From NCBI GenBank assembly GCA_033032175.1, contig JAVKPJ010000050.1:1-64000 (forward strand): a stretch of 64,000 nucleotides of DNA, in the 5' to 3' direction. The DNA is from Saturnia japonica (Eukaryota > Arthropoda > Insecta > Lepidoptera > Saturniidae). The number at the start of each line of letters is the position of its first letter. The first letter of the stretch is position 1. Shown here in pieces: positions 1-62,778 of the stretch. A program made the translations under genes and the position numbers. Under the pieces are notes generated by a model. The model had not been told where the DNA came from. It saw nothing but the letters and a program-made list of their open reading frames with translations, and did not search any database.

Positions 1-246
1 CAGCCGCTGTCCGGAACTGGGCCCTTGGGGCTCAAATTGAGCCCTCATCGGCCCCAGCCCGGTACTGAGTGCGCCGCGCACATGCCACACCCAGGAGCTT
101 TTAACGGCCCTCCAGCCAGCGCCCCTCCATGGTCCCCTCTGATAAGCAGAGGGATACCAGGAGGAGCGCGTCAGATATTAGCCGCCGACCAAAGTGGTCG
201 ACGTTGCCCGGGGTGCACCACGAGGAGGTTTCTGACATCGCACCCC
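1..246 (-). mobile_element. E0: 5' end of a telomeric retrotransposon running off the left edge
   Basis: Only the 5' UTR is inside the window. It closely matches the 5' UTRs of the gag-only elements at 59291-59603 and 62045-62351, including the hairpin CCCCTCTG/CAGAGGG and the terminal ribozyme, so the element is probably gag-only or family A. The 5' terminal G is at 246 and telomere repeat follows at once. The coding part lies left of base 1. Confidence 0.85.
170..246 (-). ncRNA. HDV-like self-cleaving ribozyme at the 5' end of E0
   Basis: Read on the minus strand from 246: P1 GGGGTGC pairs with GCACCCC (7 bp), P2 GTCAGA pairs with TCTGAC, P3 ACC pairs with GGT around the loop TCCTCGT. The joining strand GGGCAAC, a P4 hairpin CGACCA-CTT-TGGTCG and the catalytic J4/2 segment CTAA follow in the HDV order. 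The predicted cleavage site is the telomere/element boundary. Confidence 0.85.
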
Positions 247-298
247 AACCTAACCTAACCTAACCTAACCTAACCTAACCTAACCTAACCTAACCTAA

Positions 299-300: not shown

Positions 301-351
<51 letters not shown>

Positions 352-352
<1 letters not shown>

Positions 353-432
353 GTGGAGAAACCCATCATGGGTACACACCCGCCCGGGGGGACGAGTGGT
401 TATGTGAGACTCCTACTCACTAAAACTCCACG
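352..432 (-). ncRNA. Conserved 3'-terminal RNA fold of E1
   Basis: The outer stem CGTGGAG (352-358) pairs with CTCCACG (426-432). It encloses ACCCATCATGGGT, a CACCCG/CGAGTG stem and the hairpin GTGAG-ACTCCTA-CTCAC (plus-strand spelling). Poly(A) starts one base beyond the outer stem. Confidence 0.8.
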
Positions 433-627
433 GTGTACCCTCCGCCGCCATACTGGGGCGACGCGGGCACTGCGCTGGCATTCTGCCGCGCCGCCCCGGC
501 GGCCGGCCCGGCTGAACCGGGCCCCGGCCTAAATAGGAGACGGCTCAGTACACCCTAGCCGTCTCCTCCGTCCGCCGAGCCTGTGCAATGAGAAGACGGG
601 CCCCCCGACCCGTCTCCTCTGGCTCGG

Positions 628-3600
628 CTAGGGTGGCGGGAGTTGGCGAATGAACCGCCTCCTCCTGCCACCCGTTCTTCTTTGTCGGAGAGGGCCGCTC
701 AGGGGATCCCCCTCGCGTGCCCTCTCCGCAGCCTCCTTCTGCGAGATGACTTCCTCGCAGAAGGAGGCCATCGCCTTCCATGCATTCTCGCTGCCGAGCA
801 TGGCTCTCACCACACTCGGCAGCGAGAGGTCTCCTCCCACATCTACGGCCAGAGTGCGGCGCTGCCCCACCCACGCAGCACACTCAGACAAAGTGTGCTG
901 CGCCGTGTCCTCTGCAGCCCCGCACTCGTGGCACGTAGTGTTCGGCTCCCTCCTGGCAATCTTGTGCAGGTACCATCCGAAGCAACCATGTCCGGATAGC
1001 ACCTGCACAAGTCTAAAGCTCAGGGAGCCACGCTCCCTGGAACACCACTCTCGGAGGACCGGGCGGAGGGCGTCTATGGTATAACGCCCATAACGCGCGT
1101 CCGCCAGGTCCTCCTCCCACCTCCCGAAAACATTTTCCCGGGCCTCTCGCCTGACCCTGTCAATCTCCGTGGGAGCTGGAGGCTCCCCTAACCCTCTCCT
1201 CGCCGCCGTGAATTTGTACACGGCGGCGAGCACTTCCGCCTCCAGCTCCCACGGCGGGGAGCCGGCAAGAACCAAGGCCGCCCCCGCGGACACCGATCGG
1301 TACCCGCGAATTACCCTCAGCGCCACGACACGCTGCGTAGCACGCAGTATGCGTCTGTTCGTGGCGCTGAGAGCATCCGACCAGATCGGTGCCCCGTAGA
1401 CGGCCATGCTCCGCACGACCCCCGCGAACAAACGGCGACAGCTCGCGCCCGGCCCCCCCGAATTCGGGAGAAGCCGGCCGAGAGCCGCCGCCGCTCCCAC
1501 TATCCGCGGTTCGAGTCCCTTAAAGTGGGACTCGAACCGCCATCGTCCGTCCAGGATGAGGCCCAGATATTTCATCTGGGCCCCAACCCGGACCCTCACC
1601 CCCTCTACGTAGATGTGGGCCCCAGGAGGCGGCCCACACCGAGGCCCATGAAAAAGCATGGCCTCGGTCTTCTCGGCCGCCACCCTAAGGCCCAACGCCT
1701 TTATGCGCCCGACCACGAGGGCAGCGCCCTCAGTGGCCAGGCGCGCCACCTCTCCAAAAGAACCCCCCCGGGCTACGACTAGTGTGTCGTCCGCGTAGCA
1801 CAACACGCGAATCCCCGAAGGGAGCGCTACGCGGAGCACCCAGTCATAGCCCATATTCCACAGGAGCGGCCCCAACACCGACCCCTGTGGAACCCCACAC
1901 CCAGTGCGGCGCCGGACCACAGCCCCCCTTCCGTCCACGAAGGCGACCTCCCTGCCCTGGAGGTAGTCCCCCAACAGCCGCCGCAGGTACGAGGGCACTC
2001 CGAAAAACCGGAGCGCCTCCCGTATAACACCGTGCGGCAGACTGTTGAAGGCGTTGGCGATGTCGATCGACACCGCCAACAGCCTACCTCCCCCCTCGGT
2101 CGCCTCCGCGGACCACTCCTTCAGGGTGGAGAGGGCGTCCAGCGTTGAACGCCCTCTCCGGAAACCGAACTGCCGGTCCGAAAGTACCGGCCCCACTTCC
2201 GCCATGTGCCGGACGACACGAGACGCCAGAATACGCTCCAGCATCTTCCCCGTGTCGTCCAGCAGCACAAGGGGCCGGTACGAGGACGGGCAGTCCGGGG
2301 GGCGACCCTTCTTCCCCAGAAGGCAGAGTCGCCCCATCTTCCAGAGCTTCGGGAACCGTCCAACCGACAAACATCGGTTGAATAGCTCCCGAAGCTCTAC
2401 TCCCATGTGGTTCAGCGCCACACTTAAAACCTGGCCCGGAACCCCGTCCGGGCCTGGCGCCCTCCGCTTGTTGCGGAGGCGCTCCACCACCGACCCCATC
2501 TCCTCCTCAGTGATGGGGGGGGGTGGCAACAGCTCCTCCGCAACACTCCCATCTAACATGGGGGGCGGGGGGAGCTCCGGAGGGTCGGGCAGCAACGTGG
2601 CCACGACCCTCCCCAGGACCTCTGAGTCCAGGGACTCCGTTAAAGGGGGCGCCTGCCCCCGGAACTTCTTCCGGGCAACCCGGTACGGGCGCCCCCACGG
2701 GTCCCTATCCAGAGTCCTAAGGAGCTCCTCCCACTGCTCATCCTTTTCCCGGCTGATGGCCACCTGCAGGGACTTCCTGGCTTCCCTGTAGTGGCCAAGC
2801 AGCCGGGCCTCCTCCCCCGCTATACGGGTTTGCCGCCGGCGGCAGCGCTGAAGCTGCCGCCTCGCCGCGGAGCAGGCCACCCGGAGATCGGCAATCTCCG
2901 GGGTCCACCAATACACCGCCCGCCTGCTATGCGGGCGGTTGTTGCCCCGCGGCATCGACGCGTCGCAGACCGCCGTAAGGGCCTTACGGAAACGGCCCGC
3001 GATCGCGTCGATATCTTCCTCACTGGGAGCCGGCGCACGCCAGCTCTGGACGATGGCCGCCTCCTCAGCAAGCTGCCGATTGAGGCGGCCCACCACCCAT
3101 CGGGGGAAGTTAGCCCCCCCCGGAGCCCGGCGCGCCGGCACCTCTGAGGAGGTGGAGACCCCAAACCGGATATACCGGTGGTCTGACAGGGTCTCCACCT
3201 CCTCCAGCACTCTCCAATCCTGCACACGGCGTGCGACAGACGGCGTGGCGAAGGAGACGTCCACCACGGACCCTCCGTTCTGTCGCACGCACGTGTGCAC
3301 AGTCCCTCGGTTGAGGAGGGACAGCCCAACCTGGACTGCCCACTCCTCCACCACTGCCCCTCTAGGGTCCGTGACAACCGCTCCCCATGCCCGTGACTTG
3401 GCGTTAAAGTCGCCAAGCAGGACAATGGGGAGCGGTGACAGCCGCCTAACCACCGGCCCCAGGGAGTCGAGGAACACCTCGAACTCCCTCAGGGGCCGGT
3501 TGGGGGAGAAATAGACCCCCACCACACCGTATCCCCCCCAGGCGGCAGCCACGAACCCCGAGCCCCTCTCCTTGAAGGAGAGGGGGGACCCCCTACAATA

Positions 3601-3777
3601 AATTGCCACGGAGCCGTCAATGTCACCCGCCCAATAAGGTTGGGCAGGGACACAGTACGGCTCCGCAGCCACCGCAATATTGATACTCCACTCCGCCACT
3701 GATTGCACAAATAGGTCTTGTGCAGTGGCGGAGTGGTTAAGATTCCCCTGGAGGCAGTTGGTACGGTTGTGCTGCAT
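628..3777 (-). CDS. ORF2: endonuclease-reverse transcriptase (intact, 1049 aa)
   Basis: Enzyme for target-primed reverse transcription: it nicks telomeric DNA and copies element RNA from the nick. N-terminal AP-like endonuclease: GNLNH (11-15), AEPY (38-41), GDFNAKS (122-128), SDH (198-200). Reverse transcriptase: SIDIANAF (570-577, motif A), GVPQGSVLGP (628-637, motif B), YADD (661-664, motif C). The C terminus has an R1-clade zinc finger, CHEC...H...C. The start ATG overlaps the ORF1 stop as TAATG at 3779-3775, implying coupled translation. The frame has no break over 1049 codons, the normal length for the family, so it could encode active enzyme. It differs clearly from the family B and D ORF2s in this window. 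Confidence 0.92.
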   Translation of the reverse strand: MQHNRTNCLQGNLNHSATAQDLFVQSVAEWSINIAVAAEPYCVPAQPYWAGDIDGSVAIYCRGSPLSFKERGSGFVAAAWGGYGVVGVYFSPNRPLREFEVFLDSLGPVVRRLSPLPIVLLGDFNAKSRAWGAVVTDPRGAVVEEWAVQVGLSLLNRGTVHTCVRQNGGSVVDVSFATPSVARRVQDWRVLEEVETLSDHRYIRFGVSTSSEVPARRAPGGANFPRWVVGRLNRQLAEEAAIVQSWRAPAPSEEDIDAIAGRFRKALTAVCDASMPRGNNRPHSRRAVYWWTPEIADLRVACSAARRQLQRCRRRQTRIAGEEARLLGHYREARKSLQVAISREKDEQWEELLRTLDRDPWGRPYRVARKKFRGQAPPLTESLDSEVLGRVVATLLPDPPELPPPPMLDGSVAEELLPPPPITEEEMGSVVERLRNKRRAPGPDGVPGQVLSVALNHMGVELRELFNRCLSVGRFPKLWKMGRLCLLGKKGRPPDCPSSYRPLVLLDDTGKMLERILASRVVRHMAEVGPVLSDRQFGFRRGRSTLDALSTLKEWSAEATEGGGRLLAVSIDIANAFNSLPHGVIREALRFFGVPSYLRRLLGDYLQGREVAFVDGRGAVVRRRTGCGVPQGSVLGPLLWNMGYDWVLRVALPSGIRVLCYADDTLVVARGGSFGEVARLATEGAALVVGRIKALGLRVAAEKTEAMLFHGPRCGPPPGAHIYVEGVRVRVGAQMKYLGLILDGRWRFESHFKGLEPRIVGAAAALGRLLPNSGGPGASCRRLFAGVVRSMAVYGAPIWSDALSATNRRILRATQRVVALRVIRGYRSVSAGAALVLAGSPPWELEAEVLAAVYKFTAARRGLGEPPAPTEIDRVRREARENVFGRWEEDLADARYGRYTIDALRPVLREWCSRERGSLSFRLVQVLSGHGCFGWYLHKIARREPNTTCHECGAAEDTAQHTLSECAAWVGQRRTLAVDVGGDLSLPSVVRAMLGSENAWKAMASFCEEVISQKEAAERAREGDPLSGPLRQRRTGGRRRRFIRQLPPP

Positions 3778-5607
3778 TACCGAGCCGTACCAACTACCTC
3801 CGACCTAGGCCTCCCAAGACCAGCCCCAGGGGGCCTCCTCTTGGGTGATGGGGGCTTACACTTCGCCCCCCCCATATAATGGTCCGCTGGTTTTCCAGCG
3901 GCGGCGCATACGGCGCAGTGCAGCTTGGTTGCTGCACACTCTGCCGCCGCATGGCCAGGCCCCCCACACCTGTAACACAGGGCGCTCCTATCATCCATGG
4001 CCTCGCACATCGGGCGAGTGTGGCCCAGGCCCATACACCTGAAACACCTCAGGGGTTTCTCCTGCAGCGGTTGGACCCGGACCACACTCCAGCCAACGAG
4101 AAAGCGCCCCGCCTCTGCCAACTTTTTGGCTTCAGCCACGGGGAGTGACACTAGTGCCACTCCCCCACCCCAATCCTGCCGGATGGATCCAACCCTAATG
4201 AGGGCCGGCTCACATCCGGTCTTTTGCGCAACGGTGACCTTTAATTCATCCTGGCTCACGGAGTCATCAATGCCGATGATCCGAAGCTCCGCCCGTTTGA
4301 CTGGCCTGGATATCACTGCCACTTCCGCAAGAGCTACTTGCAACTGCGCAGCCAGGCCAGCCGCCTTTGTTTCACCCTCAGAGCCGCTGATCTCGATCAG
4401 CCTGGCTCCAGCGGCGGTCGTGCGGAGCTTCAGTTCATCTATCCCAAGTTCCCCCAGCTTGACCACCTCCCTCGCCCTTAAGACGGCCGCCGAATAGGAA
4501 ACGCCCCTCGCCACAGCCTCCGGCTGCAACGTTATCATAACAGCCGCCGACTGTGGCACGGAAGGCATCTTCGGCAGAGCCCCCTTCCTGCCACCCTTCT
4601 TTTTAGGCGCGGGAGCAGCTATCAGCGCAGCTGGGGCCTTGTTCTTTTTCTTTTTCGGCCGACGGACCACCGTGGTCCAGGCCTCCAAATCAACCTCCGA
4701 TGGGGCCCGAGAAGCTTCATGCCCGGGAGAGCGGGCCACTCCGTATGTGATGGAGTGGGAGTGGGCGTAGCCGTTCTCTCAGGCCTTATCCGGGACGCGA
4801 GTCGGGGCCTTTTAGCTCCTGATGGAGAAGGCCTCGCACTAGTACTGGCAGAGCTGGGAAGGACAGTTCCAGCGGAAGAACTGCGCCTTGCTGCAGGTTG
4901 CCTTTTATCACTCGCCAGCGGTGGGCGCCTGACCTGTTTTGGAAGGAGCCGTCCATCCACTTCCAGGCTGTCGAATCGGGCGTCTATGACTTCCCCAACA
5001 GCGGAGCGAATGGACCGCTCCAATCCAACCACCGCGTCCGCCAAGGCCTTTTCCCAGCAAGGGGGAGGCACCTCATTCCGCTCTGGCTGCAAAGGAGGAG
5101 AAGGAGGAGGCGGCATAATCAGCCTCGAATCAGCCTCCCGCTTCCACGCAAGGACCTCTTTCTTGAGGTCATCGACTTGCTTACGGAGCACCCTTGTTTC
5201 CCTCCCAAGGCGGGCTGTCTCCTTACTGACGGTGCGTTCCATAAGCGCTTCAACCCCTCTTTTAGTTCTTTGGCCGCACCTTTGAGAGCCTTGATTGCCG
5301 TCCCCTTCAAGTTTCCAGAGGTGCGGCAAACCTCCAAAATGGTGGACACCCCACCCTCCGTGCGCGTCCTTAGTGCTTCAGCATCTAAGGAATCTGCACT
5401 GGTATCCCCCTCAGCGTCATCATTGCCCCCACTGACTTCGACATTTGCGCCCCTTTCACCATCTCTTTCCTTCAGATAGGAATCTTCAGCGCAGGTTTTC
5501 TTAAGAATTGAGCGACCCGCGCTTCTTGATCGCCCTGAAAACCGGGCCGTTCCTCTTTTGGCCATGTTTTGTTTGGGCACTTTTGCCTCATCTTCTTCTA
5601 CCTCCAA
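3777..5607 (-). pseudogene. ORF1 (Gag-like RNA-binding protein), two frameshifts
   Basis: ORF1p packages element RNA and targets it to the telomere. Three frames are needed: 5607-~5260 (N-terminal part), ~5265-~4735 (coiled coil RETRVLRKQVDDLKKEV, proline-rich linker), ~4739-3777 (basic stretch RRPKKKKNK, Gag core, three zinc knuckles CFRCMGLGHTRPMC, CYRCGGPGHAAAEC, CAVC...H...C). Compared with intact E15 ORF1, the breaks lie near 5250-5270 and 4728-4740. No ATG is obvious at the 5' side (5607 is a TTG), consistent with 5' truncation. The stop forms TAATG with the ORF2 start. Confidence 0.85.
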
Positions 5608-5635
5608 TGCCGCAAACCGGGACCCATAAGTCCGC

Positions 5636-5670
5636 TAACCTAACCTAACCTAACCTAACCTAACCTAACC
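5636..5670 (-). repeat. Telomeric (TTAGG)n array
   Basis: Seven CCTAA units between the truncated 5' end of E1 and the poly(A) of E2. Confidence 0.97.
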
Positions 5671-17850: not shown

Positions 17851-17880
17851 TTTTTTTTTTTTTTTTTTTTTTTTTTCCTA

Positions 17881-17961
17881 CGTGGAGAAACCCTTCATGG
17901 GTACACACCCGCCCGGGGGGACGAGTGGTTATGTGAGACTCCTACTCACTAAAACTCCACG
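17881..17961 (-). ncRNA. Conserved 3'-terminal RNA fold of E4
   Basis: Outer stem CGTGGAG/CTCCACG (17881-17887, 17955-17961) and last hairpin GTGAG-ACTCCTA-CTCAC, as in E1. Confidence 0.8.
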
Positions 17962-18216
17962 GTGTACCATCGGCCGCCATAGCGGGGCGCGCGGGCAATG
18001 CGGTTGCAATCTGCCGCGTCGCCCCGGCGGCTGGCCCCAGTCGGGCCTCGGCGCTAAAGAGAGACAGTCTGGTACAACCCCAACTGTCTCCCAGACGGCT
18101 GAACCAGTGCAATGGGAAGACGGGCCCCCCGACCCGTCTCCCCTTGGTCCAGCAAGGACAGAGGAGAGAGGCGTGTAAGCACCCCCCACCTACTGCCCAA
18201 CGTCTACGCAAAAACC

Positions 18217-19124
18217 TCAAAGAGGTGCTAGTGTCGGAGGAATTCTACCTTTGCATGGGGGCGGCCTACAGCTGGCGCCTCCCATGTAGTGTGCCGCCGG
18301 AATTCCACTGTCGGCACAAACAGCGCAATGAAGCGCTTGTGCCTGGCAGTCCTGCGCCCTGTGGCCAGGGTTCCCACAGCGGAAGCAGAGTGCCCCCCTG
18401 TCGGCTGTCGACGGGCATAAAGGCCGAGTGTGGCCCAGACCCATGCACTTGTAACAACGCATGGGTTTGTGTTCCAAGACGTGGACACGGGCCGCACTCC
18501 AACCGACAAGGAGGCGTCCAGCCTCAGCCAAAGGCCTGGCCGCAGTGACAGGCACTGACAAGTGGATGGCACCTATCCCTCCCCTCGAAGATCGGATTTC
18601 GCCAGCCTTTATTAGGTCTGGCGCACAACCTCCCTTTAACGCAATTGCGGCGACGACCTCTTCTTTTGACACAGAGTCGTCCAGGCCGACGATGCGGACG
18701 TTAACTCTTTTGACCGGCCTTCTAATAACGGCGACGTCCGCTAAAGCCACCTGTAGACTCTGTGCCAATTTATCAGCTTGTTCCGGGCCTTGAGAGCCAG
18801 GAATCTCAATGATCCTGGCTCCCGATTTGGTCTCTCGGAACGCAAATCTGTCGATTCCTATTTCCGACAAGTCGACATTTGTCCTTGCTCTAAGAAGGGC
18901 TGCCTTATAGCTCACCCCCTGGGCCACTGCCTCAGGCTGCAGTGTTATAACAACCGCAGCTGAGCGTGGACCAGAGGGAAGCTTGGACTTAGAGCGCCGA
19001 GGCGCACCCTTCGCAGGGGCAGGAGCTGGCACCACAGCCGCCTTCTGCCGCTTTCTCCTCTTTTTGCGACGGGTCACAGTGGACCACGCCGCCTCAGTGT
19101 TGGTGACCAAACCAGGAGATGAAA
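18217..19124 (-). pseudogene. ORF1 C-terminal part (gag-only element)
   Basis: An open frame of about 300 codons from the truncation point to a normal C terminus. It holds a basic stretch (RRKKRRKRQK), the Gag core (SAAVVITLQPEAVAQGVSY, RPVKRVNVRIVGLDDSV, LLVGWSAARV) and three zinc knuckles: CYKCMGLGHTRPLC, CFRCGNPGHRAQDC, CAVCADSGIPAAHYMGGASC. The N-terminal half and start codon are missing, so it is not expected to be expressed as a full protein. Confidence 0.85.
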
Positions 19125-20105: not shown

Positions 20106-20131
20106 ATCCCGTTGAACCTTTTTTTTATTTA

Positions 20132-20212
20132 CGTGGAGAAACCCGTCATGGGTACACACTCGCCCGGGGGGACGAGTGGTTATGTGAGACTCCTACTCAC
20201 TAAAACTCCACG
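20132..20212 (-). ncRNA. Conserved 3'-terminal RNA fold of E6
   Basis: Outer stem CGTGGAG/CTCCACG (20132-20138, 20206-20212). The middle stem is perfect here: CACTCG/CGAGTG. Confidence 0.8.
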
Positions 20213-20531
20213 GTGTACCATCGGCCGCCATAGTGGGGCACGCGGGCACTGCGGTTGCAATCGGCCGCGACGCCCCGGCGGCTGGCCCCAGTGGGGCCCC
20301 GGCGCTAAAGAGAGACAGTCTGGTACAACCCCAACTGTCTCCCAGACGGCTGTACCAGTGCAATGGGAAGACGGGTCCCCCGACCCATCTCCCCTTGGTC
20401 CAGCACGGGCGGAGGAAGGAGGCGAGTAAACCCCCCCCTCCTACCACCCACCGTCTACGCAACCCCCTACGGAGGTCGTTGTGCTGGTGGCGGTCTACCC
20501 TTTATCAGGGGTGGCCTGCACTTCGCGCCCG

Positions 20532-21419
20532 TCATATAATGGTCTGCTGACCTCCCTGCATCAGCACACAAGGCGCAAGCAGCTTTGCAGCGATACATTG
20601 TTGCGCCTTATGGCCAGGCAGCCCACACCGGAAGCAAAGTATCCCTCGGTCCACATCCGACATGCAAACAGGCCGAGTGTGACCCACATCCATGCATCGG
20701 TAACATCGCATGGGTCCACCCTCAAGGAAGCGCACACGTGCCGCGCTCCAGCCCACCAATAGGCGTTTTGCCTCCACCAACACCTTCGCAGCTGCTACGG
20801 GAAGCGCAAGGTGGACCGCACCACTTCCCCGGCCATAGATGTTAATAGAGCCGGCCCTAATAAGAGCCGGCTCGCAACCCCCCTTTGCTGCTGCGGCTGC
20901 AACTACCTCTTCTATCGACACGGAGTCGTCTAGCCCGACGACACGGATGTTCATCCTTTTAATGGGCCGGACCACCGTGGCCAACCCCGACAGTTCCTCT
21001 TGGAGGCGCTCCGCCAGCATGTCAGCCTGCCCCGAGATCTGGTTCCCTTGGATCTCAATGATCCGGGAACCAGTGGCAGTGGGGCGCACTGAGAAATTCT
21101 CTATGCCGAGAGCTGACATGCTGACTCGGTCCCGCGCCTCCATAAGAGCGTCCTTGTAGCTTAATCCCCCCGCCACAGCTTCCGGCCGCAGCGTAATGAC
21201 CACCGCAGCCGAGCGCGGTGTCAAGGGGAGTTTTGCCTTGGGCTTGGATTTTGATCTAAGCCCACCTCCAGATGGGCCAGAAGTCACTGCCGTGGAAGCC
21301 TTAGCCTGCTTCTTGCGTCGACGTCGGCGATGAGCCACTGTAGTCCAACCGTCATCATTTGGTGTAGATAAGTCTGGAGCAGGTGTAGCAGTTCCGAGCG
21401 TATTCCGCTCGCTGTCCAT
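20532..21419 (-). pseudogene. ORF1 C-terminal half (gag-only element), frameshift in the last knuckle
   Basis: A 295-codon frame with a basic stretch, Gag core (SAAVVITLRPEAVAGGLSY, RPIKRMNIRVVGLDDSV) and two normal zinc knuckles (CYRCMDVGHTRPVC, CFRCGLPGHKAQQC). After this a one-base loss near 20575 shifts the frame, so the third CCHC is replaced by an unrelated tail. The M at 21419 is internal relative to the 688-aa intact homologue E18. Confidence 0.83.
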
Positions 21420-21455
21420 GGGCTCCTGGGAACTATCAACTACAATCCCGTTGAA

Positions 21456-47489: not shown

Positions 47490-47519
47490 TTTTTTTTTTT
47501 TTTTTTTTTTTTTTTTTCA

Positions 47520-47605
47520 GTTTGGGAAAACCCATCATGGGTACCCGCCCGCCGCGGAGGACAGCAGACGGGTTATGTGGGACTGTACCCACTAAAAACC
47601 CAAAC
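47520..47605 (-). ncRNA. Conserved 3'-terminal RNA fold of E13
   Basis: Outer stem GTTTGGG/CCCAAAC (47520-47526, 47599-47605), hairpin ACCCATCATGGGT, stem ACCCG/CGGGT, last hairpin GTGGG-ACTGTA-CCCAC. All stems differ in sequence from the other families but pair equally well. Confidence 0.8.
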
Positions 47606-47746
47606 ATCGCCTCCGGAGCGCTTGGCGTCGGGAGCACAGGAATCGCTTGCGCATTACCTCTGTGCCCACCGACAAGCGCTGCCCCCCCGAAGAGAGGCTC
47701 TCCCCACTGGGACGCCCATCACCGACCGCAGCCCCAGCCTCCGTTC

Positions 47747-47988
47747 AATTTTTTCACGAGGTTTTATTCCTCGGTGATTTTTTAAGGAGGTTTTCTTCCT
47801 CCGGGTTCAGGCCCACACGTCCACCAGAACCCGACGCCTGGTGATTTTTTAACGAGGTTGTCTTCCTCGGTGATTTTTTAATGAGGTTTTTTTCCTCCAG
47901 GCTCCGGCCCCGCAGGACCAGAACCCCGCCCTTGTGATTTTTTAAAGAGGTTGTCTTCCTCTCAATTTTTTAGCGAGGTTTTCTTCCG
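47747..47988 (-). repeat. Six-fold GAGG/CCTC hairpin repeat in E13
   Basis: Units start near 47747, 47776, 47843, 47872, 47935 and 47963. Plus-strand pattern: AATTTTTTnn-GAGG-TTnTCTT-CCTC, or GATTTTTTAn in the middle copies. The same motif occurs once in the 5' UTRs of E2, E8, E12 and E15. Spacing between units is irregular. Confidence 0.85.
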
Positions 47989-47990
47989 CA

Positions 47991-48155
47991 CGGTCGCAGA
48001 GGACAGGGAGAGCGGCTCAACGAAACACCGACACGCCTCTTCCCCTGCGACCCCACCACGTCCGCCATCTTTTAACGACGGTGGCGACCCCGTCGAGGCC
48101 GCGGAAGGTAGGGTGAGCGGCACAACGAAACACCGACACACCTCTCCCGCCGCGG
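47991..48155 (-). repeat. Two-copy hairpin unit of E13 with covarying stems
   Basis: Copy 1 (about 47992-48055) is closed by GTCGCAG/CTGCGAC, copy 2 (about 48093-48155) by GCCGCGG/CCGCGGC. The loops share AACGAAACACCGACAC. Both sides of the stem changed together, so the hairpin itself appears to be preserved. Confidence 0.7.
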
Positions 48156-48384
48156 CCTGTCTCCTTCAGCCGCGGTGCCTCCCATACGACACCGCGGCTC
48201 GCCTCAGCGGCGGTGGCGCCCATACACCACCGCAACCTACTGTTGGCCGCTTCGTCTGGGATCTTATGCCCAAAGCCCTGACTAGCAGCCTCGCCTGTGG
48301 GTTCCTCTTGGCTTCACCGTGGAGGACCAAGCCACGGTTACTAAGCCCCCCCACCACGACAAGGCGGGAACCCTCCGGGGGGGA

Positions 48385-48402: not shown

Positions 48403-48425
48403 TTTTTTTTTTTTTTTTTTTTTTA

Positions 48426-51909: not shown

Positions 51910-51915
51910 CCTAAA

Positions 51916-52306: not shown

Positions 52307-52310
52307 CAAA

Positions 52311-53968
52311 CGTGTGAGGGCGTCTACTGTGGATCGCCCTACCCTGAATCCGTACTGCCCGTCTGAAAGCTCCGACCCCAATTCCTTCATGTGTCGGACG
52401 ACACGAGAAGCGATAATACGCTCAAGCATTTTCCCCGTGTCGTCCAACAGCACAAGGGGCCGGTAAGACGACGGGCAGTCCGGAGGGCGACCCTCCTTCG
52501 CTAGGAGACACAATCGCCCCTCTTTCCAAAGATTCGGGAACCGTCCGACCGTTATGCATCGGTCGAACAGCTCCCGAAGCTCTCCGTCTAGATGGCCGAG
52601 CGCCAACAACAGTATTTGGCCCGGAACGCCATCCGGGCCAGGCGCCCTCCACTTCCTGCGGAGGCGCTCCACCACCAGCCCCATCTCCGAATCTGATACG
52701 GGATGGGGCAAGCTCGGCGTGACCGCAGTCCCAGCCCTAGGAGGCATTGGCGGTGGGAGGAACTCCGGAGGGTCCGGGAACAATGTTCCCACGACCCTCA
52801 ACAATACCCCCGACTGAAGGGTCTCCGTTATCGGGGGCGCCTGGCCCCGAAACTTCTTCCTAGCCACCCTATATGGGCGCCCCCATGGATCCCCGTCCAG
52901 CGTTTGGAGGAGCTCCTCCCAGGCCTCATCCTTGGCCCGACCTATGGCCACCTGCAGGGACTTCTTACATTCCCTGTAGGCGTCATATAGCCGGACCTCC
53001 TCCCCAGGCTGTCGACTGCGCCGCCGACGGCTATGCTGAAGCAGCCGCCGGGCCGCGGAGCAGGCCGCACGTAGATTTGCAATCTGCGGCGACCACCAGT
53101 ACACCGCCCGTCTATTTTGCGGGCGGTTGTTGCTCCGCGGCATCGACGCGTCGCACACCTCCGTGATAGCCGCACGGAAGCGGACTGCCGACGCGTCGAT
53201 CTCCTCTGTTTCAGGAGCCGGTGACCGCCAGCTCTGCACACAAGCCGCCTCTTCAGCCATCTCTCGGTTGAGGCGGCCCACAACCCATCTAGGGAACGCT
53301 GCGCCTCTGCGTGGGCGAGCTATCCCACCCTCGGCGGAGGTGGAGACCTCGAACCGAATATATCGGTGGTTCGATAAGGTCTCCACCTCCTCCAAAACTC
53401 GCCACTCATGCACACGGCGTGCGACAGACGGCGTGGCGAACGACACGTCCACCACCGACCCTCCGTTCTGTCGCACGCACGTAAACACTGTACCTCTGTT
53501 GAGGAGGGACAGTCCAACCTCGACTGTCCACTCCTCAACTGCCAAGCCCCTTGGGCTTGTGGCCACCGCTCCCCACGTCCGCGACTTGGCATTGAGATCG
53601 CCAAGCAGGACAATGGGAAGCGGTGACAGCCGCCTTACCACCTGATCCAGGGAGTCAAGGAAAGCCTCGAACTCCACCAGGGCCCGGTTCGGGGAGAAAT
53701 ACACACCAATAATGGCGTATTCTCCCCTGGCGGCCGACACGTACCCAGCCCCCCTCTCCTTTACAGTAAGGGGCAAACCCGAGCTGTAGATCGCCACGGA
53801 GTCGTCCAGGGCCCCCGCCCAAAAAGGCTGGGCAGGGACATGGTACGGCTCCGCAGCGACCGGCACGCCAATGCTCCACTCCGCCACCGTCTGCACCAAC
53901 AAATCCTGTGCAGTGGCGGAGTGGTTCAGGTTCGCCTGAAGAAAGCTTGTATGGTTGTGCTGCATCAT
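52311..53968 (-). pseudogene. ORF2 N-terminal half of E15 (endonuclease and start of RT)
   Basis: Starts at MMQHNHTSFLQANLNH. The junction with ORF1 reads ATGATG: the ORF1 stop TGA (53967-53965) lies between two ATGs, at 53968 and 53965. The endonuclease is complete (AANLNH, AEPY, GDLNAKS with F changed to L, LSNH in place of SDH, i.e. the catalytic Asp is changed to Asn). It runs to the GFRVGRSTVDALT block and then leaves family sequence at the fusion. No RT active site. Confidence 0.88.
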
Positions 53969-56061: not shown

Positions 56062-56488
56062 TGTTTATCCCACGAGTATGGGGGAAATAAAAACGGTCCA
56101 CCCAGGCAGTGCCCCCTGTACCTGGGTAAGCCTAGCGTAACCCACCAGAGAGTCGGCCGGTTCTCTGACGGGGGTCGCACTAAAGACTGATCAACCCATC
56201 AGCCATGCATCCTATCGCAGTGCGCCGCCGCTTAGGATTGGGGTAATTTTTTATAGAGGTTTTCTTCCTCGCGATCCGGGCGGTTAAGCCAAGACCCTCG
56301 GTCCCATACGAAGCCGCGAGACATGACCACGACACTCCGATGGGATTACGAGAACGGCGGTTGTAAGGGAGGTAAAATATACCCCACTTAGCTGCCTAAT
56401 GGCAGTGTACGTGCACATCAAGCCCACCAACGCCACGTCTGTTGGCCCCCTCTGATATTCAGAGGGATGCCAGACGAGGCCCCCACTC
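56062..56488 (-). promoter_or_regulatory. 5' UTR of E15
   Basis: Aligns with E2/E8/E12 including the CCCAGGCA hairpin and the GAGG/CCTC hairpin with TATAAAAAAT tail (about 56245-56270). A segment near 56355-56400 differs. Confidence 0.55.
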
Positions 56489-56513
56489 GTCAGGTATTAG
56501 CCGCCGGCCGAAA
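56489..56513 (-). ncRNA. Remnant of an HDV-like ribozyme (5'-truncated)
   Basis: Only CGGCCGGCGG-CTAA-TA-CCTGAC is left: the 3' side of P4, J4/2 and the P2 3' strand. P1, P3 and the P2 5' strand are missing, so it cannot cleave. Confidence 0.75.
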
Positions 56514-56538: not shown

Positions 56539-56568
56539 AAACCTTTTTTTTTTTTTTTTTTTTTTTTA

Positions 56569-56649
56569 CGTGGAGAAACCCTTCATGGGTACACACTCGC
56601 CCGGGGGGACGAGTGGTTATGTGAGACTCCTACTCACTAAAACTCCACG
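56569..56649 (-). ncRNA. Conserved 3'-terminal RNA fold of E16
   Basis: Outer stem CGTGGAG/CTCCACG (56569-56575, 56643-56649), perfect middle stem CACTCG/CGAGTG, hairpin GTGAG-ACTCCTA-CTCAC. Confidence 0.8.
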
Positions 56650-56715
56650 GTGTACCATCGGCCGCCATAGTGGGGCGCGCGGGCACTGCGGTTGCAATCG
56701 ACCGCGACGCCCCGG

Positions 56716-56803
56716 AAAAATGTTGGTTAATTGTGCCTTAACCAATTTGTGTGTTCCATCCTTGTCAAGGGGAGTGCTAACCGTCTCTCCTTTCAATAGA
56801 CAC
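56716..56803 (-). pseudogene. U6atac: U6atac snRNA retrocopy
   Basis: On the minus strand from 56803 the sequence starts GTGT, then contains AAAGGAGAGA (pairs with U12-type 5' splice sites), GGTTAGCACTCCCC and TTGACAAGGATGGAA (U4atac-pairing and catalytic region), a 3' stem TTGGTTAA/TTAACCAA, and a final TTTTT typical of Pol III transcripts. These blocks match U6atac as I know it from human. At 88 nt it is shorter than the human RNA, mainly between the catalytic region and the 3' stem. It lacks any Pol III promoter: telomere repeat lies directly upstream. Its terminal T run is fused to the retrotransposon 3' UTR. A functional gene copy is therefore unlikely. Confidence 0.85.
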
Positions 56804-56823
56804 AACCTAACCGAAACCTAACC
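56804..56823 (-). repeat. Telomeric array with variant unit CCGAAA
   Basis: CCTAA, CCGAAA, CCTAA, CC between E16 and E17. Confidence 0.92.
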
Positions 56824-56846
56824 TTTTTTTTTTTTTTTTTTTTTAA

Positions 56847-56927
56847 CGTGGAGAAACCCTTCATGGGTACACACCCGCCCGGGGGGACGAGTGGTTATGT
56901 GAGACTCCTACTCACTAAAACTCCACG
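56847..56927 (-). ncRNA. Conserved 3'-terminal RNA fold of E17
   Basis: Outer stem CGTGGAG/CTCCACG (56847-56853, 56921-56927); other stems as in E1. Confidence 0.8.
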
Positions 56928-57156
56928 GTGTACCATCGGCCGCCATAGCGGGACGCCGCGGGCAATGCGGTTGCAATCGGCCGCGACGCCCCGGCAGCCG
57001 GCCCAAGTCGGGCCCCGGCGCTAAAGAGAGACAGTCTGGTACAACCCCAACTGTCTCCCAGACGGCTGAACCAGTGCAATGGGAAGACGGGCCCCCCGAC
57101 CCGTCTCCCCTTGGTTCAGCTAGAGCAGAGGAAGGAGGCAAAAGCGCCCCCCCCTT

Positions 57157-59290
57157 CTACCCAACGTCTACGCTAACCTCTGCTGAGGTATTTGGCATCG
57201 GCGGCGCCTTGCCCTTAGTGGTCGGCGGCCTGCAGCTAGCTCCTCCCATTTGATGCCCAGCCGGTCTCCCGGCATCGGCACATACGGCGCAGTGGTGCTT
57301 TTCAGCGCACTGCAGCGCCTTGTGGCCGGGCAGCCCACATCGGAAGCACAGGGTCCCGCGGTCAACTGTCGACGGGCAGAGTGGGCGAGTGTGGCCCACA
57401 CCCATGCACCTGAAACAGCGCATGGGCCCACCTTCCAGGAGGCGCACACGAGCCGCACTCCACCCGACAAGGAGGCGACCTGCCTCAACCAACACCTTCG
57501 CAGCCGCGACGGGGAGCGAGAGGTGCACTGCACCTGTGCCTCTGCCATAGGCCCGTATGGCTCCAGCTCTAATTAGTGGTTTCTCACAGCCGGTCTTAGC
57601 AGCCACAGCTGCCACAACCTCTTCCACCGACACGGAGTCGTCCAACCCAATAACGCGAACGTCCGCCCTTTTAACCGGCCTGGCGATGGTAGCCTCGCCC
57701 ACCAACACCGTCTGTAGGATTTCGGCTATCCGGTCCGCCTGTTCCGGGCCACGGGAGCCCCGGATCTCCACAATCCTGGATCCCGTAGCTGTGGCCCTAG
57801 TGGATATATTCTCGATACCGAGATCCGCCAACACAACTTGGTCCCGAGCCTTTAAGAGAGCTTCGCTATAGCTCAGTCCCCTCGCCAAGGCCTCTGGCTG
57901 CAGTGTAATAAGCACTGCAGCTGAGCGCGGTGTCGAGGGGAGATTTGCCTTAGGCTTACGCCCAGGTGCCCTCCCAACAGGTACGGGAGCTACTCCCACA
58001 GAAGGCCTCGGTACCGTGGAGAGCTTCTCCCTTCTTCTTCGGCGGCGACGGGACACAGCAGTCCATCCGTCAGCGTTCGCGTCAGTTGTGGCTGGCACAT
58101 GCGCATCAGCGCCGCGCACGGCCCACTCCATACCCATACCCAAGGGCTCTTGAGGATGGCTACCAGAAGACCTACCCTCCGCACGTGGTGCAGGGGTGCG
58201 AGCCGCAGCCCCCGGCACCATTGGTTTGCGGCTCAAAGCTGTAGTACCCACTGGTCTAGGGACAGCGGCACCACCCAACTTCTTGTCGGCAGCCAGAGGG
58301 GGGCGAACCACTGGGGCGGGGAGGAGACGGTCCTCCAGGGCCTCAATTTGGGCGGTCACTACCTCCCCCATCGTGACGCGGAGGGACCGCTCCATCGTCC
58401 CCATATGGGTCCCCATAGCTTCTACCAATGCTTGCACGAGGGATTCCTGCACAGGTGCCGGTGCTGGTGGCAACGGTGGCGCAGGTAGAGTCTCCCCCCG
58501 ATTACGGAACGAGGAAAGCTCCGCCTTGAGTTCTTCAACCTCCCGACGGAGCCTCCCCGTCTCGCGCCGCAGAAGGAGGGTCTCCTCCGCCACCGTACGC
58601 GTGAGAGCTGTGGCAGTGACCTCATGGAGGATCCACGCCGCCTCCTTCAGGTTTTTTACAAATGTACCCTTGAGGTTGCCAGATTTCTTGGCAACCTCAA
58701 GGATCGTGTCTACTTTCTCCTTTGCGAGGGCCCTCAACGTGTCAGGATCGAGGAGCTCGATGCCTTCGAGCACTCCCACATCTGCGACGGCAACCGCCTC
58801 TTCAGTGCAGGCCAGTTCAGAAGCAGGACACTTTGCCCTATCTGCCTCAACTACTGCCGCTGCACGTGGCACCCCAGCAGAGGAGCCCAGGATACGGGCT
58901 TTACCCCTCTGGGCCGTCGTCACCTTGCTGGGGGCCACCCCGTCCGCACCAGACTTGTCGCCATGCGACCGCTTCCTATCAGCGACAGTCACTGATGATA
59001 AGCTGTCAGAGCTCCCTGCCCAATGTCGGACAGAGAACCGGTCCAGCGAAACATCCCGCACAAGCCGTACCGATGGTTGTTCGGAGTCCAGTCTTAGTTT
59101 TCCCACGGTGGTCGTTTTATTGCTAGTATCGGTTATCCCAGTTCTTGCCAAAGTCGTTGTGATTTTACCAGTCTTGTGCAAATCTTTGCCCCCCCCCAGA
59201 AAACGTGGGGCAGCCCGAGCTTTGCTCGGAGAGGGATTCTCCCTTGCGGGTACCCTCCTGGGGTAGTTTCTTTTTAAGGTTTGCTTCCAT
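57157..59290 (-). pseudogene. ORF1 of gag-only element, one +1 frameshift near the N terminus
   Basis: Start MEANLKKKLPQEGT at ATG 59290. The frame breaks in a run of nine C (59189-59197) where E9 and E18 have eight, right after the CPTFSGGG cassette. The remaining ~670 codons (59181-57157) are open: KSGNLKGTFVKNLKEAA block, coiled coil (LRRETGRLRREVEELKAEL), basic linker, Gag core (SAAVLITLQPEALARGLSY, RPVKRADVRVIGLDDSV), knuckles CFRCMGVGHTRPLC, CFRCGLPGHKALQC, CAVC...H...C. The break may be a homopolymer error or slippage. The stop is TAG; no ORF2 start follows. Confidence 0.87.
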
Positions 59291-59526
59291 CTTCACTGCT
59301 CTACCCGTCAGTTTGCGGTACGCCTGCCGGGACCGGTATGAAAACAACTAATCCCGCCAGCCGCTGTCCGGTACTGGGCCCTTGGGGCTCAAACTGAGCC
59401 CTCATCGGCCCCAGCCCGGTACTAGGTGCGCCGCGCACATGCCACACCCAGGAGCTTTTAAGGGCCCTCCAGCCGGCGCTCCTCCACAGTCCCCTCTGAT
59501 AAGCAGAGGGGTACCGGGAGGAGCGC
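59291..59526 (-). promoter_or_regulatory. 5' UTR of E17
   Basis: Same type as E0 and E18. Contains the hairpin CCCCTCTG-ATAAG-CAGAGGGG near 59491-59511. Confidence 0.6.
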
Positions 59527-59603
59527 GTCAGGTATCAGCCGCCGACCAGAATGGTCGACGTTGCCCGGGGTGCACCACGGGGAGGTTCCTGACATCGCAC
59601 CCC
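59527..59603 (-). ncRNA. HDV-like self-cleaving ribozyme at the 5' end of E17
   Basis: P1 GGGGTGC/GCACCCC, P2 GTCAGG/CCTGAC, P3 ACC/GGT with loop TCCCCGT, GGGCAAC, P4 CGACCA-TTC-TGGTCG, J4/2 CTGA. Against E18, the P2 end pair is G-C here and A-T there. Confidence 0.86.
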
Positions 59604-59613
59604 AACCGAAACC
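59604..59613 (-). repeat. Minimal telomeric array with variant unit CCGAAA
   Basis: AA, one CCGAAA unit, then CC, between E17 and E18. Confidence 0.85.
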
Positions 59614-59640
59614 TTTTTTTTTTTTTTTTTTTTTTTTTAA

Positions 59641-59720
59641 CGTGGAGAAACCCATCATGGGTACACACCCGCCCGGGGGACGAGTGGTTATGTGAGACTC
59701 CTACTCACTAAAACTCCACG
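59641..59720 (-). ncRNA. Conserved 3'-terminal RNA fold of E18
   Basis: Outer stem CGTGGAG/CTCCACG (59641-59647, 59714-59720); hairpin GTGAG-ACTCCTA-CTCAC. Confidence 0.8.
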
Positions 59721-59977
59721 GTGTACCATCGGCCGCCATAGTGGGACGCGCGGGCACTGCGGATGCAATCTGCCGCGACGCCCCGGCGGCCGGCCCCAGT
59801 CGGGCCCCGGCGCTAAAGAGAGACAGTCTGGTACAACCCCAACTGTCTCCCAGACGGCTGAACCAGTGCAATGGGAAGACGGGCCCCCCGACCCGTCCCC
59901 CCTTGGTCCAGCAAGGACAGAGGAGAGAGGCGTGTAAGCACCCCCCCCCCTACTGCCCAACGTCTACGCTACCCCCT

Positions 59978-62044
59978 CTACGGAGGTGGTGGTGCAGGCG
60001 GTGCCCTTCCTCTCTTTTCAGGGGGCCTACATTTGGCGCCCCCCATGTAGTGCCCCGCCGGCCTTCCGGCGTCGGCACACAAGGCGCAGTGCAGCTTTTC
60101 AGCAGTGCACGCTTGCGCCTTGTGGCCAGGCTCTCCGCATCGGAAGCACAGTGCTCCTCTATTAACCGCCGTTGATGGGCAGAGCGGACGCGTGTGGCCT
60201 ACCTCCATGCAGCGGTAACACCGCATGGGCCCACCCTCCAGGAGGCGCACACGAGCCGCACTCCACCCGACCAGGAGGCGACCCGCCTCCACCACCACCT
60301 TGGCAGCGGCTACAGGTAACGCAAGATGGACTGCGCCGCTGCCCCTGCCATAGGTGTTAATAGAGCCAGCCCTGATAAGAGCTGGCTCACAACTCCCCTT
60401 AGTCGCTGCAGCCGCAACGACTTCCTCCACCGAGACGGATTCATCCAGTCCTATGACTCGGATATGGGCCCTTTTAACGGGCCGAGCCACCACAGCCAAC
60501 CCCGACAACTCTTCCTGGAGGCGCTCCGCCAGCCTATCGGCCTGCTCCGAACTTTGATCCCCCCGAATCTCTATGATCCTGGATCCAGTAGCAGAGGGGC
60601 GCCACGAGAAATCCTCTATACCGAGCTCTGCCATACTCACTCGGTCCCTCGCTTCTAAAAGAGCGTCCTTATAGCTAAATCCCTCCGCCACAGCTCCCGG
60701 CTGCAGCGTAATAACAACAGCAGCCGAGCGCGGTGTCGAAGGGAGCTTCGCCCTTGGTTTAGGCTTAGGCTTGCCTCCAGGTGGGATGGAAGCCGCTACC
60801 ATCGGAGCCTTAGTGGGCTTCTTGTTTCGGCGTCGGCGACGAGCTACAATTGTCCACTCCCCGTCAGGCATCACTGGAGGAGCAGGAGCAGGAGCGGATC
60901 CAGGGAGCAGTTCGCAATGTACTCCCTTCTGACCGGTACTCACCGCAGGGAGAGACCCTGTCAACTTAGATCCTGCAGTCTTAGCCCTTACAGGCTTTGG
61001 TACTGTGGGCCCGGGAGTCGCCTTGCGGTTTGCATTCAAGGGTGGGCGGACCACCTTAGCGGGCAGGAGACGGTCTCCCAACGCCTCAATCTGGGCGGAC
61101 ATTGCCTCACCCAAGGAGAGCCGAAGCGACCGCTCCATGCGCACCATGTGATCCGCCAATACGTCTTGCACGTTCTGCGGCAAAGTTTGTTCTTCCTGAC
61201 TGGAAGACTCCGGCTGCAGTGCCGGCACTGGTGGCAAAGGTAGAGCATCTGCCCTGCCACGTAGAGCAGCGAGCTCCGCCTTCAGCTCTACCACTTCTTC
61301 GCGAAGCTTCCGCGTTTCTCGCCGCAAGAGTAAAGTCTCTTCTGCCACCGTGCGCCTAAGCGCAGTTGCCGTCACCTCCTGGAGGGTTCTAGCTGCCTCC
61401 TTCAGCGCCTTTATGCACGTACCCTTGAGGTTGCTAGACACTCTGCATACCTCAAGGATAGTGTCAACTTTACTTGTCGCCAGAGCCCTCAGGCTCTCCG
61501 GGTCGAGAGCCTCAAAGTCTAGTGGCGGCTCTGCAGGTAACTTCTGCAGAGTGTTACCGCGGACAGAGGAACTCTCATCACGCGACTCAACCGCACCCCC
61601 TGGAACACTCGTTGACCTAGTTGAACCACCCCGGTCACGTGCTCTGCCTCTCTGGGCCGTAGTTACCTTACTAGGCGTAGCGTCCCCACTAGTAATACCC
61701 GGTTTATCTTCATGTGTCCGCTTCCTGTCAGATACAGCTTCCGTCGTTGTAATATCGGGGCTCTCAGACCAGTGTCTGACCGAAAAACGGTCCAGTGAGA
61801 GATCCCTGAGAATCCGAACAACAGGCTGATCAGTAGCCAGTGTGCGTTTGTCCGTAGTCGTCATTTTCTTGATGGAATCGGTTTCCCGTGTTCTTGCCGT
61901 AGTCGTAGTTTTATCGGAGTCGTGCAAAATTTTGCCCCCCCCAGAGAACGTGGGGCAGCCCGAGCTATGCTCGGGGAGGGATTCTCCCTTGCGGGTACCC
62001 TCCTGGGGTATTAAACTTTTCAACTTTGCCTTGTCCATCATCAT
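59978..62044 (-). CDS. ORF1: Gag-like RNA-binding protein of a gag-only element (intact, 688 aa)
   Basis: Starts at one of three tandem ATGs (62044, 62041, 62038). Domains: N-terminal cassette SLIPQEGTRKGESL...CPTFSGGG; Ser/Thr-rich region; KVDTILEVCRVSSNLKGTC block; coiled coil (LLLRRETRKLREEVVELKAEL); basic linker; Gag core (SAAVVITLQPGAVAEGFSY, RPVKRAHIRVIGLDESV, LLVGWSAARVRLL); zinc knuckles CYRCMEVGHTRPLC (609-622), CFRCGEPGHKAQAC (633-646) and CALC...H...C (653-672); a proline-rich end. It stops at TAG 59980-59978 and lacks the TAATG coupling site. Because the only protein encoded is Gag-like, reverse transcriptase must come from another element. Confidence 0.92.
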   Translation of the reverse strand: MMMDKAKLKSLIPQEGTRKGESLPEHSSGCPTFSGGGKILHDSDKTTTTARTRETDSIKKMTTTDKRTLATDQPVVRILRDLSLDRFSVRHWSESPDITTTEAVSDRKRTHEDKPGITSGDATPSKVTTAQRGRARDRGGSTRSTSVPGGAVESRDESSSVRGNTLQKLPAEPPLDFEALDPESLRALATSKVDTILEVCRVSSNLKGTCIKALKEAARTLQEVTATALRRTVAEETLLLRRETRKLREEVVELKAELAALRGRADALPLPPVPALQPESSSQEEQTLPQNVQDVLADHMVRMERSLRLSLGEAMSAQIEALGDRLLPAKVVRPPLNANRKATPGPTVPKPVRAKTAGSKLTGSLPAVSTGQKGVHCELLPGSAPAPAPPVMPDGEWTIVARRRRRNKKPTKAPMVAASIPPGGKPKPKPRAKLPSTPRSAAVVITLQPGAVAEGFSYKDALLEARDRVSMAELGIEDFSWRPSATGSRIIEIRGDQSSEQADRLAERLQEELSGLAVVARPVKRAHIRVIGLDESVSVEEVVAAAATKGSCEPALIRAGSINTYGRGSGAVHLALPVAAAKVVVEAGRLLVGWSAARVRLLEGGPMRCYRCMEVGHTRPLCPSTAVNRGALCFRCGEPGHKAQACTAEKLHCALCADAGRPAGHYMGGAKCRPPEKRGRAPPAPPPP

Positions 62045-62274
62045 ATTTCAATCCTTCTAGTTCGCAGTACGCCTGCCGGGATCGGTATAAAACAACCGAT
62101 CCCGCCAGCCGCTACCCGGAACTGGGCCCTTGGGGCTCAAACTGAGCCCTCATCGGCCCCAGCCCGGTACTGGGTGCGCTGCTCACACGCCACACCCAGG
62201 AGCTTTTAACGGCCCTCCAGCCGGCGCTCCTCCACAGTCCCCTCTGATAAGCAGAGGGGTACCGGGAAGAGCGC
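62045..62274 (-). promoter_or_regulatory. 5' UTR of E18
   Basis: Same type as E0 and E17, with the hairpin CCCCTCTG-ATAAG-CAGAGGGG near 62239-62259. Confidence 0.6.
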
Positions 62275-62351
62275 GTCAGATATTAGCCGCCGACCAAACT
62301 GGTCGACGTTGCCCGGGGTGCACCACGAGGAGGTTTCTGACATCGCACCCC
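62275..62351 (-). ncRNA. HDV-like self-cleaving ribozyme at the 5' end of E18
   Basis: P1 GGGGTGC (62351-62345) with GCACCCC (62321-62315), seven Watson-Crick pairs. P2 GTCAGA (62341-62336) with TCTGAC (62280-62275). P3 ACC/GGT with loop TCCTCGT, very close to the HDV loop; GGGCAAC; P4 CGACCA-GTT-TGGTCG; J4/2 CTAA. Confidence 0.87.
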
Positions 62352-62403: not shown

Positions 62404-62778
62404 AAGCACAGAGCCTCAGATTTTTGCAGCGCCACATTTAGTCCCAGACGCCGGATCCGACCGACGACGTGTGCCACCCCAGCGGTTGCCAATATCGCGG
62501 CTTCGTGGTGCGACTTAGCTCTCGACGTGACCAGTGTGTCGTCGGCATAACACACGACACTGAGGCCACGGAGGAGCGCACCGCGCAACACCCAGTCGTA
62601 TCCGATGTTCCAGAGAAGAGGGCCCAAAACTTACCCCTGGGGAACACCGGATACGACGTCTCGCCGACACATTCCACTCCGACCCGGGAAGACTACATAC
62701 CTCTCGGAGAGGTACGCCCCGACTATGCGGCGGAGGTAGGACGGCACTCCGTGAAATCGGAGCGCCTCTCTAATTGTG
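62404..62778 (-). mobile_element. E19: family B ORF2 fragment broken at its 3' side
   Basis: Contains RT motif B to C of ORF2 (GVPQ..., WNIGYDWVL, CYADDTLVTSRA) almost identical to E8. Unlike every other element it meets the telomere repeats without 3' UTR, terminal fold or poly(A). The frame at motif B is intact except for a G-to-K change, read as GKFWALF in a shifted frame. It is cut by the gap at 62779. Confidence 0.85.

Follow-up and report, generated by a model that had tools for sequence, protein, structure and literature searches.

Two non-LTR elements in a telomeric array of Saturnia japonica, E17 and E18, are very probably members of an established non-autonomous lineage that carries gag only, derives from SART-like (R1-type) telomeric elements and would be mobilised in trans through a 3'-terminal RNA module. 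The window analysed here is a stretch of 64,000 nucleotides (C50:1-64000), and the assembly that was searched comprises 580 Mb in 402 contigs. An array of head-to-tail non-LTR elements occupies the minus strand of the window from 249 to ~62,400, and TTAGG tracts lie between most neighbouring elements. No tRNA genes were found. The following gag-only features and 5' ends were identified:

59614..62351, minus strand: E18, complete gag-only unit (ribozyme start, one ORF, poly(A) and GGTT)
59978..62044, minus strand: E18 ORF1, Gag-like, open, 688 aa (CCHC knuckle; long helices and an RRM-like pair predicted)
62274..62351, minus strand: HDV-like ribozyme at the E18 5' end (RF02682, 44.4 bits, gathering score 44)
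56824..59603, minus strand: E17, complete-length unit of a different gag-only subfamily, with a break in the ORF1 frame close to the N terminus
57157..59181, minus strand: E17 ORF1 body, 674 aa from TTG
59526..59603, minus strand: HDV-like ribozyme at the E17 5' end (37.8 bits, E 0.002, below gathering)
17851..19124, minus strand: E4, 5'-truncated gag-only copy
~20119..21455, minus strand: E5a, 5'-truncated gag-only copy
19142..~20115, minus strand: E5b, 5'-truncated gag-only copy abutting E5a
1..248, minus strand: E0, gag-only-like element that the window edge cuts off after its 5' end

E18 consists of an HDV-like ribozyme, a 5' UTR, an ORF1 of 688 aa, a 3' UTR, a poly(A) of 25 nt and GGTT. 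The same layout was observed in E17, with a poly(A) of 21 nt before GGTT, and the two units are 2.7-2.8 kb long. No similarity to endonucleases or reverse transcriptases (RT) was found in E17 or E18. The sequence-only reading had described both as complete units lacking ORF2; the plan, the length and the lack of ORF2 hold, but the ORF1 of E17 is frame-broken near its N terminus, since the first ATG (E17 nt 318) is out of frame with the ORF1 body. In 11 further E17-type copies (99-100% identity) the frame is open, over 729-747 aa in nine and over 704 and 716 aa in the other two. E4 and E5 had been listed as truncated members, and both are indeed 5'-truncated; the E5 region, however, is made up of two abutting copies, E5a and E5b, separated by a single GGTT. 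E0, of which only the 5' end lies inside the window, may be a further member; this end has 93-94% identity with the 5' end of the gag-only units.

Insertion into TTAGG takes place between T and A (TT^AGG), with the sense strand of the element on the TTAGG strand. TT precedes the 5' ends of E17 and E18, and GGTT directly follows the poly(A) in 40 of 41 complete gag-only units. The sequence TTAGGTTAGGTTAGG occurs 34 times in the window against 0.00 expected; this excess, together with the same arrangement genome-wide, excludes chance. On contigs of stated length with copies at most 400 kb from an end, with ends taken as assembled and misjoins possible, the outward TTAGG strand coincides with the sense strand of the elements at seven ends out of ten (C1, C14, C15, C16, C18, C19 and C24) and the polarity is reversed at three (C4, C7 and C25). 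The tip is thus usually faced by the 3' end of the element.

In the genome of the window, the lack of ORF2 extends to every ORF1 of the family that was read. At least 66 matches to the E18 ORF1 (65 candidates scored of 5921) and at least 68 to the E17 ORF1 (66 candidates scored of 5012) were detected. Joining of ORF2 was observed in none of the 79 ORF1s that were read (73 from a recount of 3' ends, five chromosome-internal copies and one at C7; some share flanks and not all are independent). All but two continue through the 3' UTR to poly(A), the exceptions (2/79) being tandem units cut short of it. The recount was based on 99 distinct 3' ends, picked by a shared 3' core in loci L001-L053 and the window: 73 carry the C-terminal part of a gag-only ORF1 and no ORF2, 10 carry ORF2 and 16 carry neither. 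The 73 C-terminal parts are 62-100% identical to those of E17 or E18 and end 310-382 nt before the 3' end; poly(A) is present in 71, and the two ends without it belong to a tandem on C24. As the loci were chosen by ORF1 match, these figures do not tell how common gag-only elements are relative to two-ORF elements. For the coordinate test, 119 of 134 ORF1 match rows were used; the 15 left out are partial or split matches, with full or near-full ones at C8, C13 (two), C28 and C219, and the copy at C8 was read directly. One apparent ORF1-ORF2 element, at C7:22047849, was rejected: it consists of a gag-only unit with poly(A), then TTAGG repeats, then a separate 5'-truncated E1-type copy. A host-domesticated gag gene is ruled out by the copy number and the poly(A) insertions.

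It could be argued that the gag-only copies form no lineage and arose from autonomous elements by deletion, locally or repeatedly. Identity in the C-terminal part of ORF1 speaks to this: compared with E18, the five ORF1s of the window that have ORF2 behind them reach no more than 56%, the gag-only ones at least 61%. Where ORF1 and ORF2 of one element were found at an end (E1, L051, L052 and L053), the ORF1s are 44-58% identical to E18's, the value of 58% coming from a 121-aa piece of L051. A gag-only 3' UTR in common with the E1 family (described below), in an alignment that may reach slightly into the C-terminal codons of E1 ORF2, makes a deletion-like origin of the gag-only ancestor likely. 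Deletion as the source of the individual copies is nevertheless highly improbable, given that no ORF1 of 79 is joined to ORF2, that the ORF1s with and without ORF2 are separated in identity, and that divergence inside the gag-only clade has been long and under selection. The suggestion that E17 and E18 belong to a propagating lineage rather than to one deletion was therefore borne out by the whole-genome search and by the selection on ORF1; the majority of ORF2-bearing copies that would have spoken against it was not seen.

A first tree, with 36 gag-only rows and five autonomous ones, separated the two sets at a single, weakly supported branch (69/65). In a larger tree, 16 gag-only rows and one external sequence, P0001, fall on one side (89/87) and adjoin the E1 family (96/95). 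Support for the gag-only branch is only moderate. A clade of the gag-only rows minus P0001 was rejected (p-AU 0.019); for ORF2 to have been lost only once, P0001 would therefore have to be gag-only too. The protein end of P0001 resembles that of gag-only proteins and is without the E1-family tail.

Between gag-only subfamilies, Nei-Gojobori dN/dS was 0.38 for A-B (dS 0.36), 0.26-0.30 for A-C, 0.27 for B-C and 0.25 for A-D, the last at a dS of 1.44 and near saturation; for two close A copies it was 0.45. An excess of differences at third codon positions was observed in all ten pairs tested. These substitution patterns show purifying selection on ORF1 between the gag-only subfamilies, with dN/dS at 0.25-0.45 for dS values under 0.7. 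Provided that ORF2 was lost a single time, ORF1 has remained functional throughout the absence of ORF2.

The protein itself has a CCHC knuckle (Pfam) and a predicted RRM-like pair at ~440-601, for which the top Foldseek matches are tandem RRMs with low TM-scores. The AlphaFold model of ORF1 is of low confidence (mean pLDDT 50, pTM 0.25), and its RRM-like stretch is the only part used. Among named Gag proteins the closest come from Lepidoptera (Spodoptera, 38%; Danaus, 37%; Dendrolimus, 32%), and a repeat homolog search with an alignment as query returned the same four proteins.

The proposed autonomous partner of the gag-only units is the family of E1, which lies in the same array:

301..5638, minus strand: E1, SART-like, 5'-truncated, ORF1 frame-broken, ORF2 open; proposed autonomous partner family
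628..3777, minus strand: E1 ORF2, 1049 aa, endonuclease and RT (domain and structure matches)
59640..59735, minus strand: 3'-terminal RNA module of E18 (covariance model and alignment)
56846..56942, minus strand: 3'-terminal RNA module of E17 (covariance model and alignment)

Among solved structures, E1 ORF2 best matches the endonuclease of TRAS1 ORF2p (1wdu, E 8.6e-13) and then that of R1Bm, which speaks against a jockey-clade partner. At least 44 genome matches to E1 ORF2 (87-100%) were found, of which 39 have no internal stop. The E1 3' UTR is 86% identical to that of E18 over 298 nt and 82% identical to that of E17 over 348 nt; in E3, E6-E10 and E12 only the last ~112-119 nt match the E18 3' end, at 75-80%, and over all the other families with a match there the values are ~105-119 nt and 75-81%. 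The E1 family is most likely the donor of ORF2, although the insertion target and the fold of the module are common to the SART-like families of the window.

The last ~100 nt of 15 elements could be aligned, and RNAalifold predicted 24 pairs from this alignment, 13 of them with two-sided changes. In a set of 21 pairs that make up four helices, pairing holds in 99.0% of cells, compared with 85.7 in shuffles; 47 cells show a two-sided change, compared with 15.9 when shuffled and at most one when slid. Further pair types are fewer than in shuffles (11 vs 15.2), which is expected because the changes preserve pairing. The outer helix lies directly against the poly(A), and the gag-only helices are of E1's version. 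A covariance model gave 16 matches in the window, so that every poly(A) 3' end has one (16/16), including that of E5a, which is absent from the alignment on which the model was built.

It has been shown that SART1Bm proteins act in trans on a reporter with the SART1 3' UTR and mobilise it into TTAGG repeats, in an assay that uses Sf9 cells (PMC7265360). Sequence comparisons suggest that the gag-only units are likewise mobilised in trans, by the RT of a two-ORF relative. As the motif implies, the HDV-like ribozyme would free the 5' end of the RNA. Gag translated from ORF1 would then package the RNA of its own element, probably with a preference for cis, and such packaging would explain the selection on ORF1. 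The ORF2 protein of a two-ORF relative, most likely of the E1 family, would recognise the module and the poly(A) in trans, nick TTAGG between T and A and copy the RNA by target-primed reverse transcription.

Two further features of the window bear on whether ORF1 contributes to this process:

47490..48384, minus strand: E11, ORF-less 0.9-kb element with the four-helix 3' module (covariance model and alignment)
56544..56805, minus strand: E13, U6atac snRNA fused to the end of a gag-only-type 3' UTR and poly(A), in TTAGG

Ends of the E11 type account for nine of the 99 3' ends; eight have a unit length of 855-877 nt, and some of the contigs share flanks. The 3' UTR part of E13 (148 nt) is 98% identical to E5a and 92% to E1, and the simplest reading of its sequence is that reverse transcription began on a gag-only-type 3' UTR and then switched to U6atac, in keeping with the proposed cycle. 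Template switching of L1 with U6 and U6atac has been described (PMC4476161). E11 and E13 show that insertions bearing the 3' module can arise where the element itself encodes no protein. They are what would be expected if the gag-only units were passive hitch-hikers for which only the module matters, with ORF1 kept through a few recent master copies or through another role of Gag. We consider this unlikely: selection on ORF1 was detected between subfamilies at dS 0.24-0.66, and many frames are open over 689-747 aa, so the protein appears to matter over many rounds of copying. A broader proposal takes the TTAGG telomere as a stable community of four tiers under one 3' RNA tag, namely two-ORF SARTs, the Gag-only clade, ORF-less elements and cellular-RNA chimeras. 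The Gag of the Gag-only clade might then supply RNP assembly or telomere targeting to the whole community, in a true division of labour like the one proposed for HeT-A, though here in canonical repeats, and not just as a parasite; we hold this to be conceivable and rather doubtful.

Spread of the arrays mainly by telomere recombination or break-induced replication, and not by retrotransposition, was also considered. The 41 complete units (2.68-2.79 kb) lie on 31 contigs and form 28 clusters once units with either flank in common are merged. Contig pairs with whole stretches in common include C65/C67, C1/C60 and C39/C50, some of which may be haplotypes, and L020/L021 is a tandem repeat joined at a non-telomeric junction. 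Recombination as the main route is nonetheless quite improbable, as poly(A) lengths differ, 5' truncations vary, flanks fall into as many as 28 clusters, and single copies with poly(A) are present inside chromosomes. Five such copies, deep inside chromosomes, have ORF1 followed by 3' UTR and poly(A) and no ORF2. These observations point to retrotransposition as the source, with recombination adding copies. Against the main reading stand several gag-only copies inside chromosomes that lack TTAGG flanks, the tandem with its cut 3' end, the broken ORF1 of E17, the many low ribozyme scores and a 5' leader that resembles E8 and not the E1-family L052 or L053.

The gag-only units resemble SART-like telomeric R1-type elements in their insertion at TT^AGG, in the orientation that places their sense strand on the TTAGG strand, and in having a structured 3' UTR and poly(A), this last a likeness in kind of feature. 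They differ from such elements in the absence of the second ORF for endonuclease and RT, which is present in E1; SART1 of Bombyx mori has both ORF1 and ORF2. The enzyme partner of HeT-A in Drosophila belongs to the jockey clade. HeT-A is telomeric, encodes only Gag and uses the RT of another element, a Gag like that of HeT-A occurs together with Pol in TAHRE, and HeT-A gag is also apparently under negative selection, as described in two accounts (PMC4700185, PMC5537684). The gag-only units are likewise telomeric and encode Gag only, and would depend in the same way on a foreign RT. HeT-A arrays, however, replace telomerase repeats, whereas the gag-only units sit within TTAGG; the proposed partner here is of SART/R1 type, and at seven of the ten contig ends it is the 3' end that points to the tip. 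The comparison with HeT-A made in the sequence-only reading is thus apt for the lifestyle and fails for membership.

The same reading had placed a similar arrangement inside canonical repeats. The units do lie within TTAGG, and a dependent element in such repeats has a precedent. MoTeR2 of Magnaporthe oryzae is reported to lack RT, to reside inside canonical telomere repeats and to have terminal sequences in common with the RT-bearing MoTeR1 (PMC7367193). The gag-only units have their 3' end in common with E1, their 5' leader matches E8 and their ribozyme start matches several families. In MoTeR2 an unrelated insert without obvious function replaces RT, whereas the gag-only units keep a selected Gag. 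HAL1 is a mammalian L1 derivative that is not known to be telomeric. This half-L1 is described as a LINE derivative that encodes ORF1p only and has arisen several times (PMC5753468); it shares the ORF1-only state with the gag-only units, whose relatives are SART/R1-like and not of the L1 clade.

Each component thus has a separate precedent: HeT-A as a gag-only telomeric element, HAL1 as an ORF1-only derivative of a LINE and MoTeR2 as an element in canonical repeats that lacks RT. New, as far as seen, are a large selected SART-type gag-only clade inside TTAGG, a shared covarying 3' module and an ORF-less tier with the same module. No gag-only SART or TRAS element was found in the titles and abstracts returned by an open-licence literature search, which is not proof of novelty. 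If the proposed reading is correct, the HeT-A type of arrangement, with Gag only and a borrowed RT, arose separately inside canonical TTAGG telomeres and need not be a by-product of the loss of telomerase repeats. The covarying 3' module would provide a compact, testable definition of the RNA accepted by a telomeric RT, and the coexisting dependent classes make cis preference and parasite load testable in the SART1 Sf9 assay.

The 5' leader of the gag-only units is a mosaic. Its first part (nt 1-85) is like that of several families, and nt 137-470 are 85% identical to E8; no match of nt 137-470 was found in the E1-family elements L052 and L053. RF02682 matches were detected in 11 loci at 32.7-44.4 bits; the gathering score of 44 is reached by L001, L005, L010 and L014 and, in the window, by the ribozymes of E0 and E18, and many gag-only copies score below it. 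The ribozyme start motif is present in the first 40 nt of 34 of the 41 complete units.

Gag-only units (ORF1, 3' UTR and poly(A), without ORF2) and elements of the E1 family (SART-like, with ORF2) were also found inside chromosomes:

C11:7.195-7.2015 Mb, E1-family element (L052), deep chromosomal interior
C9:15354200, C1:18684800, C19:10208000, C7:7209370 and C8:5910250, chromosome-internal gag-only copies with poly(A) (L054-L058)

The five gag-only copies are off-target insertions; GG was observed at the start of the flank in four, and TTAGG repeats in none. The 3' end of L052 is altered and its flank is non-TTAGG. ORF2 copies of 1062 aa resembling that of L052 were detected inside other chromosomes, and together these copies perhaps represent a lineage that departed from the telomere. 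Gag-only units also occur in tandem:

C24:14.010-14.015 Mb, tandem gag-only units of ~2.7 kb (L020/L021)

Here the 3' end is cut and the junction is non-telomeric; amplification was probably by recombination, not by insertion.

Three further elements were identified in the window:

48403-56507, minus strand, apparent join of two elements, 8.1 kb (E12)
56544-56805, minus strand, U6atac snRNA joined to a 3' UTR of the gag-only type, inserted within TTAGG (E13)
47490-48384, minus strand, ~0.87-kb element without an ORF, carrying the shared four-helix 3' module (E11)

E12 looks like an E1-like front (ORF1/ORF2), with similarity in ORF2 stopping near residue 552, joined to an E2-like rear. E13 is a probable template-switch chimera lying within a telomere. 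E11 contains repeated GAGGAAGAAAACCTC-like blocks, and eight units of this type (855-877 nt) were present among the loci read.

Matches to an Rfam microRNA family run antisense to the element array:

13379-13445, 23067-23135, 27270-27338, 33465-33533, 39698-39766, 42840-42908, 49966-50032 and 62592-62660, plus strand, mir-3389, scores below gathering

Because their positions suggest that they fall within the RT regions of SART-like ORF2, the mir-3389 family may be retrotransposon-derived.
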